Below the pieces are notes generated by a model. It was not told the DNA's origin, did not search any database, and saw only the letters and a program-made list of their open reading frames with translations. A stretch of 64,000 nucleotides of DNA from Streptomyces sp. NBRC 110028 (lineage in GTDB: Bacteria; Actinomycetota; Actinomycetes; Streptomycetales; Streptomycetaceae). Numbering within the stretch: the stretch's first letter is position 1; each line of letters begins with the position of its first letter. Location: positions 1 to 64,000 of the forward strand of contig NZ_BBUZ01000023.1 in NCBI RefSeq assembly GCF_001417735.1, in the 5' to 3' direction. This document shows, one piece after another, positions 50,243 to 53,380 of the stretch. The position numbers and the translations under genes are program-made.

Positions 50243-51841
50243 CTATTCCTGCGGCTCCACCCCGGCCCGCAGCAGCCCGTACGCGTAGGCGTCGTCCAGC
50301 GCCTGCCAGGAGGCGTCGATCACGTTCTCGGCGACGCCGACCGTGGACCACTCCCCCTGTCCGTCCGTGGTCGAGACGAGCACCCGGGTCGTGGACTCGG
50401 TGCCGTGCTTGCCCTCCAGGATGCGGACCTTGTAGTCCACCAGCTCCATCTTGGCCAGCTGCGGATAGATCCGCTCCAGGCCCACGCGCAGCGCCTTGTC
50501 CAGCGCGTTGACCGGGCCGTTGCCCTCCGCCGTGGCGACGATGCGCTCGCCCTTGGCCCACAGCTTCACGGTCGCCTCGTTGGCGTGGGTGCCGTCCGGG
50601 CGGGTCTCGACGATCGCGCGCCAGGACTCGACCCGGAAGTAGCGGCGGGTCCGGCCCTCGGCCTCCGCGCGCAGCAGCAGCTCGAACGAGGCGTCGGCGG
50701 CCTCGTACGTGTACCCCGCCAGCTCGCGCTCCTTGACCCGCTCGACCACCCGCCCCACCAGCGCCCGGTCACCGCCGAGGTCGACGCCCAGCTCCTTGCC
50801 CTTCAGCTCGATCGAGGCGCGGCCCGCCATGTCGGAGACCAGCATGCGCATCGTGTTGCCGACCCGCTCGGGGTCGATGTGCTGGTACAGATCCGGGTCG
50901 ACCTTGATCGCGGAGGCGTGCAGTCCGGCCTTGTGGGCGAAGGCGGAAACACCCACATAGGGCTGGTGCGTGGACGGCGTCAGATTGACGACCTCGGCGA
51001 TCGCGTGCGAGATCCGGGTCATCTCCTGCATCGCACCGGGCGGCAGCACCCGGCGGCCGTACTTCAGCTCCAGGGCGGCGACGACGGGGAACAGGTTGGC
51101 GTTGCCGACCCGCTCGCCGTAGCCGTTGGCGGTGCACTGCACGTGGGTGGCGCCCGCGTCGACCGCGGCCAGGGTGTTGGCGACGGCGCAGCCGGTGTCG
51201 TCCTGGGCGTGGATGCCCAGGCGCGCGCCGGTGTCGGCCAGGACGGTGCGGACCACGGCGTCGATCTGGCCGGGCAGCATGCCGCCGTTGGTGTCGCAGA
51301 GGATCACCACGTCGGCGCCCGCCTCGTGGGCGGCGGAGACGACCCGCTTGGCGTAGTCGGCGTTGGCGCGGTAGCCGTCGAAGAAGTGCTCGCAGTCGAG
51401 AAACACCCGGCGGCCCTGGGACCGCAGGTAGGCGACGGTGTCGCGGACCATCGCCAGGTTCTCCTCCAGCGTGGTGCGCAGGGCCAGCTCCACATGGCGG
51501 TCGTGGGACTTGGCCACCAGGGTGATCACCGGGGCACCCGAGTCCAGCAGCGCCTTGACCTGCGCGTCATCCTCGGCGCGGACGCCCGCCTTGCGGGTCG
51601 CGCCGAACGCGACGAGCTGGGCGTGCTTGAAGTCGATCTCCGCTTGGGCGCGGGCGAAGAACTCCGTGTCCCGCGGGTTCGCGCCGGGCCAGCCGCCCTC
51701 GATGAAGCCCACGCCGAAGTCGTCCAGGTGACGGGCGATGGTGAGCTTGTCGGCGACCGTCAGGTTGATGCCCTCGCGCTGCGCGCCGTCGCGCAGCGTG
51801 GTGTCGAAGACGTGGAAGCTGTCGTCGGGCCGATCCTTCAT
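50243..51841 (-). CDS. cimA: (R)-citramalate synthase
   Basis: A 532-residue enzyme of the isopropylmalate/citramalate synthase family. The catalytic signature FDTTLRDGAQREGINL, the metal ligands in GIHAQDDTGCAVANTLAAVDAG, and the C-terminal LeuA-type regulatory domain (from about residue 390) are present. CimA makes citramalate from acetyl-CoA and pyruvate for isoleucine. The length and the sequence in the first 200 residues fit CimA better than LeuA. The leader (51842-52167) has a micro-ORF with two Ile codons and a terminator, suggesting attenuation by isoleucine. ilvE lies upstream. Confidence 0.93.
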   Translation of the reverse strand: MKDRPDDSFHVFDTTLRDGAQREGINLTVADKLTIARHLDDFGVGFIEGGWPGANPRDTEFFARAQAEIDFKHAQLVAFGATRKAGVRAEDDAQVKALLDSGAPVITLVAKSHDRHVELALRTTLEENLAMVRDTVAYLRSQGRRVFLDCEHFFDGYRANADYAKRVVSAAHEAGADVVILCDTNGGMLPGQIDAVVRTVLADTGARLGIHAQDDTGCAVANTLAAVDAGATHVQCTANGYGERVGNANLFPVVAALELKYGRRVLPPGAMQEMTRISHAIAEVVNLTPSTHQPYVGVSAFAHKAGLHASAIKVDPDLYQHIDPERVGNTMRMLVSDMAGRASIELKGKELGVDLGGDRALVGRVVERVKERELAGYTYEAADASFELLLRAEAEGRTRRYFRVESWRAIVETRPDGTHANEATVKLWAKGERIVATAEGNGPVNALDKALRVGLERIYPQLAKMELVDYKVRILEGKHGTESTTRVLVSTTDGQGEWSTVGVAENVIDASWQALDDAYAYGLLRAGVEPQE

Positions 51842-51944
51842 GGTGGTCTGGCTCCTGTCGGGGTGGATCTCGGGCTACCGGAATAACCGGTTCCGCGCCC
51901 TCCTATGATCCCGCACACTCCGCCTCCGGTGGGATGGTCCGGAA

Positions 51945-51977
51945 AACGAAAAGACCCCTCGCGGGTGCGAGAGGTCT
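51945..51977 (-). terminator. U-tailed intrinsic terminator or attenuator before cimA
   Basis: On the minus strand AGACCTCTCGC (51977-51967) pairs with GCGAGGGGTCT (51962-51952), 11 pairs including one G-U, with the loop ACCC, followed by TTTTCGTTTT. A U tract is uncommon in Streptomyces. It ends 103 bases before the cimA start. It may be a plain ilvE terminator or, more interestingly, an attenuator of cimA. Confidence 0.8.
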
Positions 51978-52029
51978 GCGCGCGGGTCTGGGGCACGGTG
52001 GCCGCGCCGTACCGGGTCGTACGGGGCGA

Positions 52030-52065
52030 TCACTGCGGACCGGCGCGCCTGCTGCCAATAATCAT
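52030..52065 (-). CDS. Candidate leader peptide MIIGSRRAGPQ
   Basis: A 12-codon frame (ATG to TGA) encoding MIIGSRRAGPQ. Codons 2 and 3 are both ATT, a rare Ile codon in this very GC-rich genome, which would slow ribosomes when charged tRNA-Ile is scarce. It stops 53 bases before a terminator hairpin and about 190 bases before cimA. There is no clear ribosome site, and the ATTATT could instead be part of a -10 box, so it is a proposal. Confidence 0.4.
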   Translation of the reverse strand: MIIGSRRAGPQ

Positions 52066-52167
52066 GGCGAACGAGAGCACGGGGGCAGTCAAGCACATTC
52101 CGCCCCCGCGCTCCCGTCCGTCTCAGAATGCGAGCTATGAGCCCCCGAGAAGGCCCCGTCAACCGCC

Positions 52168-53253
52168 TCAGCCGATGCGGTGGAGCCAGCCGTGGGGGTC
52201 GGGGGCGGCGCCGGTCTGGATGTCCAGCAGCGCCTTGCGCAGCTTCATCGTGACCTCGCCGGGCTGCCCGTCGGCCACCGTCCAGCTCGCGCGGGCGGAC
52301 TTGACCGAGCCGACCGGGGTGATCACGGCCGCGGTGCCGCAGGCGAAGACCTCGGTGAGGCTGCCGTCCGCGGTCGCCTCGCGCCAGTCGTCGACCGAGA
52401 TCCGGCCCTCGGCGACCTCGTAGCCGAGGTCGGCGGCGATCCGCAGCAGCGAGGCGCGGGTGATCCCGGGCAGCAGCGCCCCGGACAGCTCCGGGGTGAC
52501 GATGCGGTTCCCGTACACGAAGTACAGGTTCATGCCGCCCATCTCCTCGATCCAGCGGCGCTCGATGGCGTCCAGCCAGACCACCTGGTCGCAGCCCTGC
52601 TCGGCGGCCTGCGCCTGGGCCACCAGCGAGGCGGCGTAGTTGCCGCCCGCCTTGGCGGTGCCGGTGCCGCCGGGCGCCGCGCGCACGTACTCCTCGGACA
52701 GCCAGACGGAGACCGGCTGGACGCCACGGGAGAAGTAGGCGCCGGCCGGGGAGGCGATCAGGACGAACATGTATTCGTTGGCGGGACGGACCCCCAGGCC
52801 CACCTCGGTCGCGAACATGAACGGCCGCAGGTACAGGGACTCCTCACCACTGCCCGGCACCCACGCCCGGTCCTGGGTGACCAGGGCGTCGCAGGCCGCG
52901 AGGAACAGGTCGACCGGCAGCTCGGGCATCGCCATGCGGCGGGCGGAGGCCTGGAAGCGCTCGGCGTTCTGGTCGGGGCGGAAGGTGGCCACGGTCCCGT
53001 CGGGCTGGCGGTACGCCTTGAGCCCTTCGAAGATCGTCTGTGCGTAGTGCAGCGTCATGTTCGCCGGGTCGAGCGAGAGCGGGGCGTAGGGCACGAGCTG
53101 GGCCTCGTGCCAACCGCGGCCCTCCGTCCACTTGATGGTCACCATGTGGTCGGTGAAGTGGCGGCCGAATCCGGGATTGGCCAGGATCTCCTCCCGCTCC
53201 GCGTCGGAGAGCGGGTGCGAGGAGGGCTTGAGCTCGATCGAGGGCGTCGTCAT
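52168..53253 (-). CDS. ilvE: Branched-chain amino acid aminotransferase
   Basis: A 361-residue class IV aminotransferase that makes Val, Leu and Ile from their keto acids. Conserved parts are [15 protein letters not shown] (PLP-domain start), the PLP Lys in [32 protein letters not shown] and [19 protein letters not shown] at 53251-53253 gives the correct length. It lies between leuB (upstream) and cimA (downstream) on the same strand, separated from leuB by a hairpin, so it has its own promoter in 53254-53347. Confidence 0.96.
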
Positions 53254-53347
53254 GAGTGGTAGTCCTTCACTTCCGTTGTGGCGGACCGCGCTCACACCAT
53301 CCTGCCCGTGATCGGTACTAGGACGTCCAAGCTTCCCTGAACACGGC

Positions 53348-53380
53348 GGCCCCACGAGCGATTATCGCTGACGTGGGGCC
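53348..53380. terminator. Hairpin after leuB
   Basis: Arms GGCCCCACG (53348-53356) and CGTGGGGCC (53372-53380) enclose a nested stem of AGCGA and TCGCT with a TTA loop. The structure lies 80 bases downstream of the leuB stop and 95 bases upstream of the ilvE start, and probably ends leuB transcription. Confidence 0.75.

Follow-up and report, generated by a model that had tools for sequence, protein, structure and literature searches.

A candidate isoleucine-responsive leader-peptide attenuator upstream of cimA in Streptomyces and other Actinomycetes

The window analysed here is the whole stretch of 64,000 nucleotides from Streptomyces sp. NBRC 110028 (contig NZ_BBUZ01000023.1, positions 1 to 64,000). 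On its minus strand it carries a gene that we take to be cimA, the name coming from a first-pass annotation of the sequence and from general knowledge of the protein family. The gene ilvE is found on the same strand, upstream of the leader described below and inside the frame 52168-53355. Between the two genes, at 51945-52065, the first-pass annotation had placed a possible isoleucine-sensing attenuator, made of a micro-ORF MIIGSRRAGPQ with two ATT codons, a U-tailed terminator and an internal hairpin with arms CCGTAC and GTACGG, all lying upstream of cimA. The micro-ORF is present at 52030-52065 (minus strand) and cimA does follow the leader. The terminator was also recovered, with 11 pairs and then a T run, and it is the sole terminator-like site in 51600-52400, where shuffled sequences average 0.2. 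It stands between the leader ORF and the structural gene, as in leader-peptide attenuators. The whole leader unit extends from about 51942 to 52092, broader than previously described, and its features are collected in Table 1.

Table 1. Features of the cimA leader unit in the window (peptides are given up to the stop codon)
Feature	Position	Strand	Remarks
-10-like hexamer TTGACT	52087..52092	-	6 nt upstream of GTG
Leader-peptide ORF MLSFAMIIGSRRAGPQ	52030..52080	-	start GTG 52080, stop TGA 52030; predicted leaderless, transcription start 52080
Putative regulatory isoleucine codons ATT ATT (codons 7, 8)	52057..52062	-	
P0 5' arm GCGCGCCGGTC	52038..52048	-	within ORF; 14 and 11 nt after first bases of the two ATT codons
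P1, Streptomyces-type hairpin in P0 loop	51994..52037	-	holds the CCGTAC/GTACGG arms
P0 3' arm GACCCGCGCGC	51978..51988	-	ends immediately before terminator
Intrinsic terminator hairpin	51952..51977	-	11 pairs then T run
U-rich terminator tail	51942..51951	-	
Likely cimA ribosome site GACAGGAG	51852-51859	-	
cimA, (R)-citramalate synthase, presumed regulated gene	50243..51841	-	

Genomes were scanned with CimA and the best 80 of the 590 loci were fetched (79 titled Streptomyces and one Actinacidiphila); the leader was found at all 80. These relatives and the window are called the Streptomyces set below, 81 leaders of which 79 are distinct. An in-frame start and an open ORF were present in 81/81 leaders, with GTG in 77 and ATG in 3. 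In the remaining one (L037) the GTG lies 18 nt upstream of the inner ATG owing to a frame-keeping insertion of 3 nt. The ATG start given to the micro-ORF in the first-pass annotation is very probably wrong. The constant frame opens at GTG 52080, 15 nt further upstream, and in 17 of the 81 leaders the position of the inner ATG reads ACG or GTG, which rules that codon out as a general start. The ORF ends in RAGPQ in 71/81 leaders and, through a one-base shift, in another way in 10/81, whereas every one of the 81, the shifted-frame leaders included, retains the RNA CGCGCCGGTCC; the tail of the peptide is thus not the conserved thing.

A hexamer of the form xAxxxT precedes the start in 78/81 leaders, at a spacing of 6 nt (75 leaders) or 7 nt (3 leaders), and its commonest version is CAGACT (50/81). 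Among the three exceptions, the window and L040 both read TTGACT, a weaker match shared by these two only, and this atypical hexamer of the window itself speaks against the attenuator. The third, L037, was missed by the fixed offset of the script owing to the insertion and reads CAAACT 6 nt before the GTG. In S. lividans 17% of the transcripts are leaderless, and their promoters have A at position 2 (94.5%) and T at position 6 (97.4%) of the hexamer, at a mean spacing of 6.3 nt (PMC8079986, in excerpt). The hexamer and spacing of the cimA leaders fit these promoters, which suggests that transcription starts at the leader GTG and that the ORF very probably begins at GTG 52080 as a leaderless start. 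Such a start would answer both doubts that had been attached to the micro-ORF, the absent ribosome site and the reading of ATTATT as a -10 box. ATTATT was rejected in that role, since 78/81 leaders have the -10-like hexamer upstream of the start codon at a distance of 6 or 7 nt.

The consensus fold of the Streptomyces set was obtained from an alignment of 62 of the 81 leaders, with a mean column identity of 81%. In this fold a long helix, P0, is formed by GCGCGCcGGTC, within the ORF, and GACCcGCGCGC, which abuts the terminator, and its pairs are invariant. Compensatory changes were seen in P1 (for example G-C to A-U in 13/62 rows, columns 57/90) and in the terminator (C-G to U-A in 3/62 rows). 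The CCGTAC/GTACGG arms proposed earlier do exist, at 52019-52024 and 52007-52012, but they are the tip of P1, a Streptomyces elaboration within the longer helix P0. Across families the length of the P0 loop ranges between 3 and about 40 nt, and beyond the genus most loops, at 3-22 nt, are too short for P1. As most leaders of other families have no room for this hairpin, it was rejected as a core element.

Two models were used for the search beyond the genus, R1, which describes the whole leader, and R2, which describes P0 and the terminator only. For the comparison of families, 60 R1 matches were fetched and 51 P0-terminator segments were aligned, 48 of them from these 60 loci and 3 from the Streptomyces set; the script that found the segments required a hairpin at most 5 nt from the terminator, which favours abutment. 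Both sides had changed in 5/9 of the P0 pairs, with 93.4% of the cells paired. Over the whole structure 93.9% of the cells were paired, compared with 41.7-55.9% when one side was slid. Four of the five measures of covariation were reached by 0/500 shuffles, and the fifth, the count of further pair types, by 107/500. What the families have in common is mainly the pairing of the helices and, at the foot of P0, the GCGCG. The gap between P0 and the terminator was measured in 164 leaders (L192 left aside). Of these, 146 have no nucleotide between the two, 17 have one and a single leader has two. The loci outside the genus had been found via layout models that favour small gaps, but in the 80 measured leaders of the Streptomyces set, which was gathered by CimA alone, the gap was 0 nt throughout.

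R1 gave a single match in the window's genome, at this locus (E 5.7e-38, the window being among the source sequences of R1), and matches in 137/296 genomes of the class at E <=0.01; CimA was found in 236/296. R2 matched 212/296 genomes of the class and 95/114 genera, including 36/36 genomes of the window's genus, and outside the class it matched other families of the phylum at E <=1e-5. Of 150 listed R2 places, 105 are directly upstream of a listed CimA and 4 are not, with no CimA listed for the other 41. Among the matches listed, 45/150 CimA genomes have no R2 directly upstream, which weighs against the attenuator, although some matches were weaker than those listed. In G025 and G044, to name two, CimA is present with no R2 match at all. 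The element is common in the class, not universal. No Rfam family reached its gathering score over the leader, and a permissive scan returned microRNA models only, far below their cut-offs, the best of them around the promoter (E 4.7e-5). A T-box was looked for as well; the permissive scan of 51842-52167 gave no match to one, and only tRNAs were found at gathering score in the window.

Conservation of the isoleucine codons across cimA leaders was a check proposed by the first-pass annotation as one that could refute it; the codons were kept in 81/81 leaders of the Streptomyces set, so the check did not refute the proposal. Codon 7 is ATT in all 81, and codon 8 is ATT in 55, ATC in 19, ATG in 6 and ACC in 1, so that isoleucine is encoded there in 74/81. 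The rarity of ATT, also pointed out earlier, was borne out by the 32 likely genes of the window, in which it accounts for 7 of 511 isoleucine codons (1.4%).

A survey of codons across the class covered 100 loci, 60 from the R1 list and 40 from the R2 list, chosen for breadth and not at random. The ORFs were chosen by the -10-like hexamer and the positions of start and stop, without regard to codons, and 86 cimA leaders from 85 genomes of the class were parsed, the window's genome excluded. At least one isoleucine codon was present within 24 nt upstream of P0 in 86/86 parsed cimA leaders and at least two in 78. The share of isoleucine among the codons of this stretch was 31.5% in frame vs 0.2% and 0.8% in the other frames. 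R1 includes the isoleucine codons and might favour them, whereas R2 was built without ORF sequence; among the cimA leaders chosen from the R2 list, isoleucine was present in 37/37, two or more codons in 32/37 and ATT in 35/37. Thus a short ORF with end-product codons was found in 81/81 and 86/86 leaders, and its kept start, frame and codons suggest that it is translated. In the 86 leaders the last isoleucine codon begins 12 to 5 nt ahead of P0, whereas the end of the ORF spans -1 to +17 nt relative to the P0 start, as would be expected if the position of the codon, and not the peptide or the stop, matters. In the Streptomyces set P0 follows the first bases of the two codons at 14 and 11 nt, or at 13 and 10 nt in the shifted frame. 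The script called no ORF for L135 (ilvB) and L136 (cimA), the latter ending in TCITT when read by eye.

The leader is real and conserved, and its most likely role, judged from sequence, is that of an isoleucine attenuator of cimA. We hold with good confidence that it acts as an isoleucine-specific leader-peptide transcription attenuator gated by a ribosome at P0. The core of the earlier proposal is therefore strongly supported by the codons (codon 7 ATT in 81/81, codon 8 isoleucine in 74/81, isoleucine before P0 in 86/86); its start codon, its worry over the -10 box and the role it gave to the hairpin were wrong or incomplete, and no alternative structure competing with the terminator was found.

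The front edge of a ribosome reaches about 11-13 nt beyond the first base of the codon in its A site. When isoleucine is ample, the ribosome would continue over the P0 5' arm to the stop and cover most of that arm there; P0 would be unable to fold, the terminator would fold and transcription would end before cimA. When tRNA-Ile is uncharged, the ribosome would stall at ATT, its leading edge close to where P0 begins, and P0 would fold. The folded P0, 0-2 nt from the terminator, would then impede completion of the terminator at the polymerase exit, and cimA would be transcribed. The reach of the ribosome and the spacing of the isoleucine codons together imply that stalling should permit P0 and normal translation prevent it, a stalled ribosome leaving the control hairpin free and a ribosome at the stop covering it. 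P0 would have to oppose termination if such regulation is to make physiological sense. We infer the translation, the stalling, the read-through and the effect of P0 alike. In ilvB1 of Mycobacterium tuberculosis, for which a ribosome footprint of 26 nt was used, reporter tests support an anti-terminator role (PMC13236596, in excerpt).

Folding with ribosome masks was carried out on six leaders in a first run and then on 165, without L129 (no called terminator), L136 (no ORF) and one leader of the Streptomyces set with a changed P0. With a mask ending before P0 the 5' arm was paired (mean 0.98), and with 10 nt of P0 masked P0 could not pair, by construction. The mean probability of terminator formation was 0.985 with no ribosome, 0.986 with the ribosome stalled and 0.971 with the ribosome at the stop, two leaders at probability 0 (L168 and L192) being probably due to misplacement of the hairpin by the script. 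Since the terminator was favoured in all three ribosome states, folding alone yields no switch, and in the predicted folds P0 and the terminator can coexist. Before the terminator 3' arm was made, the 5' arm was sequestered at 0.013 with the ribosome stalled, 0.256 at the stop and 0.225 with no ribosome, which in these models is the opposite of the pattern of a classical antiterminator.

How P0 would disarm the terminator is a matter of hypothesis, and pause-based and factor-based versions are alternatives to hindrance by abutting. The latter was proposed because the contact is conserved (gap 0-2 nt) and no competing pairing is supported; to us the chances that a folded P0 hinders the abutting terminator appear evenly balanced. 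Rather unlikely, but worth weighing for this last step only, is that P0 serves as a pause or synchronising hairpin for the polymerase and that ribosome-polymerase contact or NusA, NusG or Rho decides. This would be equally consistent with the anatomy and with no competing helix having been found, and, as the terminator hairpin ends only about 75-140 nt after the start codon, the ribosome and the polymerase would be close. A pause role alone, however, leaves the abutment of 0-1 nt (163/164) unexplained, though a pause hairpin could be constrained too.

We consider it improbable that the last step is that of a classical attenuator. In such a step the ribosome stalled at isoleucine would let an antiterminator form that shares bases with the terminator, either in the manner of trp or with the loop of the first hairpin bound to the terminator 3' shoulder, a pairing proposed for Corynebacterium ilvB-II. 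Leader-peptide attenuators are known to work through base-sharing antiterminators, the ilvB-II model has the loop pairing with the terminator (PMC10272879, in excerpt), and in some leaders C-rich P0 loops could, by eye, pair with the G-rich 3' arm. An alternative structure had also been considered by the first-pass annotation, but neither folding with ribosome masks nor comparison of pairing in own and swapped sequences found an antiterminator sharing terminator bases. Own sequences showed no advantage over swapped ones in the pairing of the loop with the 3' arm (p 0.955 for 77 leaders of the Streptomyces set and 0.73 for 84 others), while the control pair was reached by 0/5000 permutations in both. 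For either P0 arm or the loop with the terminator 5' arm, swapped sequences paired more strongly than own ones (p 0.998 or more), other arm pairs were unsupported, and the terminator was favoured in nearly all folded leaders. Among the 85 leaders outside the Streptomyces set only the P0 and terminator pairings were favoured in own sequences, with the exception of a weak signal between the ORF end and the P0 3' arm (p 0.01) that leaves the terminator untouched; as the sequences are related, the small p values for P0 and the terminator are not probabilities, and the negatives are the point.

That the leader is a riboswitch-like RNA binding a ligand or a protein, with an incidental ORF, is very doubtful. 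Leaders of the Streptomyces set are very highly conserved in sequence (mean column identity of 81% over 62 leaders), which would suit such an RNA, but across families the loops vary, with mainly the helix pairing and the P0 foot kept, what is conserved in the ORF is its isoleucine codons, and no Rfam family matched the leader at gathering score; a riboswitch was rejected on these grounds, and a T-box on the lack of an Rfam T-box match at the leader. The least credible reading does away with the attenuator and takes ATTATT as a -10 box, the micro-ORF as fortuitous and the hairpin as an ilvE terminator. It could draw on the position of ilvE, which in the window precedes the leader in the same orientation and in 18/80 relatives ends <=500 nt from it. 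Against this, start, frame and isoleucine codons are all conserved, the -10-like hexamer lies before the GTG, and ilvE occurs within up to 2.5 kb upstream in only 28/80 relatives, all 28 of which keep the leader. The leader goes with cimA, and the hairpin was rejected as an ilvE terminator.

Leader-peptide attenuation of ilvB, leuS, trp and other genes in Actinobacteria is known or has been proposed (PMC1262725, PMC8079986, PMC10272879 and PMC13236596, all in excerpt). The ilvL leader of Streptomyces ilvBHC, MRTRILVLGKRVG (Table 4 of PMC8079986), resembles the cimA leader in its leaderless peptide, end-product codons, hairpins and U-rich stretch, and differs from it in carrying Ile, Val and Leu codons and lying upstream of ilvB. 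The leuS leader of Streptomyces, MRAVRLLLSEPR (same table), has the same layout as the cimA leader, with leucine codons instead and a place upstream of leucyl-tRNA synthetase; leuS attenuators also appear in PMC1262725. The same Table 4 holds eight S. lividans leader peptides, none of them for cimA. In the ilvB-II motif of Corynebacterium (PMC10272879), as in the cimA leader, a uORF with branched-chain codons runs over a first hairpin, named P1 there, and is followed by a terminator, P2; reporter expression was lower in rich than in minimal medium. Unlike the cimA leader, that motif is upstream of ilvB, and the loop-pairing antiterminator proposed for it was unsupported for the leaders tested here. 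The ilvB1 attenuator of M. tuberculosis (PMC13236596) follows the same logic, in that a ribosome stalled on branched-chain codons permits an anti-terminator and a ribosome at the stop masks it, and changing four codons abolished the response. It differs from the cimA leader in its LVVI codons and, by the description of that paper, in its mutually exclusive hairpins. The LEU element of leuA (PMC1262725) is a pseudoknot whose base stem pairs Leu codons to the ribosome site of the gene, whereas the cimA leaders have Ile codons and a terminator instead. For amino acid pathways beyond the ones it lists, PMC1262725 (in excerpt) reports that conserved structures are lacking ahead of the genes. In the open-access literature searched, we found no report of a cimA attenuator and none of a hairpin disarming a terminator by abutment. 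The cimA target and the isoleucine specificity appear to be new; the kind of attenuator was already known.

The same module was found before other branched-chain genes; the gene names at the loci outside the window are our reading of the translated products. In the window's genome R2 has three sites at E <=5, before cimA, leuS and ilvB (the last named by its leader). The leuS leader is MRAVRLLLSGPR (L177, G000:C28:299686-299769, plus) and the ilvB-type leader, read by eye, is MRTRILVLGQRVG (L178, G000:C23:72585-72678, minus), and both share the P0-terminator layout. Several branched-chain codons of these two leaders end in A or T (by eye), an uncommon choice for this genome. In other genomes of the class, ilvB leaders end in LVIP, LVVG or IVVVRWRAA, with Leu, Val and Ile codons, a leuA leader reads MTNLLLT, with Leu codons, and leaders of threonine dehydratase, the other entry into isoleucine synthesis, end in LMAIT or LMAITWARD. 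Outside the class 14 loci were fetched, with clear examples for ilvB (ending in RVLVLVM and SFVLILM), leuA (MSQNLLLT) and leuS (MAAALLLSPPR); others were less clear, and L264 is a plain terminator. Among the 20 loci of this round, L264 included, L249, L252 and L253 gave no clear reading and the script found no ORF for L256, L260 and L262. The codons match the gene, Ile for cimA, Leu, Val and Ile for ilvB, Leu for leuA and leuS, and an ending in AIT for threonine dehydratase.

Tentatively, these leaders may represent one standard two-hairpin module for branched-chain genes spread over the Actinomycetota, with no bases common to sensor hairpin and terminator. In such a module the ribosome-gated hairpin would disarm the terminator by abutting it and not by out-pairing it, and a swap of only the codons before the hairpin would change the target (Ile for cimA, threonine dehydratase and small ACT-like proteins, Leu, Val and Ile for ilvB, Leu for leuA and leuS). 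The class is used to make antibiotics, and branched-chain precursors feed polyketide synthesis. If the cimA attenuator holds true, the committed citramalate route to isoleucine would gain a direct end-product switch across much of the class, and the amino acid sensed could be predicted from two or three codons beside the hairpin. Without a competing antiterminator, how a hairpin disarms a neighbouring terminator would become a clean and testable question. Mutation of the leader codons of S. coelicolor ilvB left regulation unaffected, as told in the excerpted text of PMC1262725, which counts against the attenuator; the arrangement described here may itself bear on those mutations, which do not fit classical attenuation.

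Some loci showed further variants of the module. In two genomes, the module with an LMAIT ending stands before a likely threonine dehydratase (L195 in G111 and L153 in G152), and their cimA has no listed R2 match upstream. Two others have a second leader of the isoleucine type, MFALVIIM (L134, G183) and MFTPRIII (L211, G102), before a small ACT-like protein that is perhaps a regulatory subunit. In the window's genus, extra isoleucine-type leaders, MLHRLIISWSVSAPT (L248, G478) and MLCQLIISCSVSAPT (L250, G496), precede a protein that looks, by eye, like the CimA C-terminal part standing alone. At L251 (G480), MQRRLIISARVPAPR precedes an ACT-like frame, near the start of which is a stretch, MFGTTLRNGSQ, like the N-terminus of CimA. 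Outside the class, the R2 match at L260 (G349), with codons for RVLLIT, lies before a frame resembling prephenate dehydratase.
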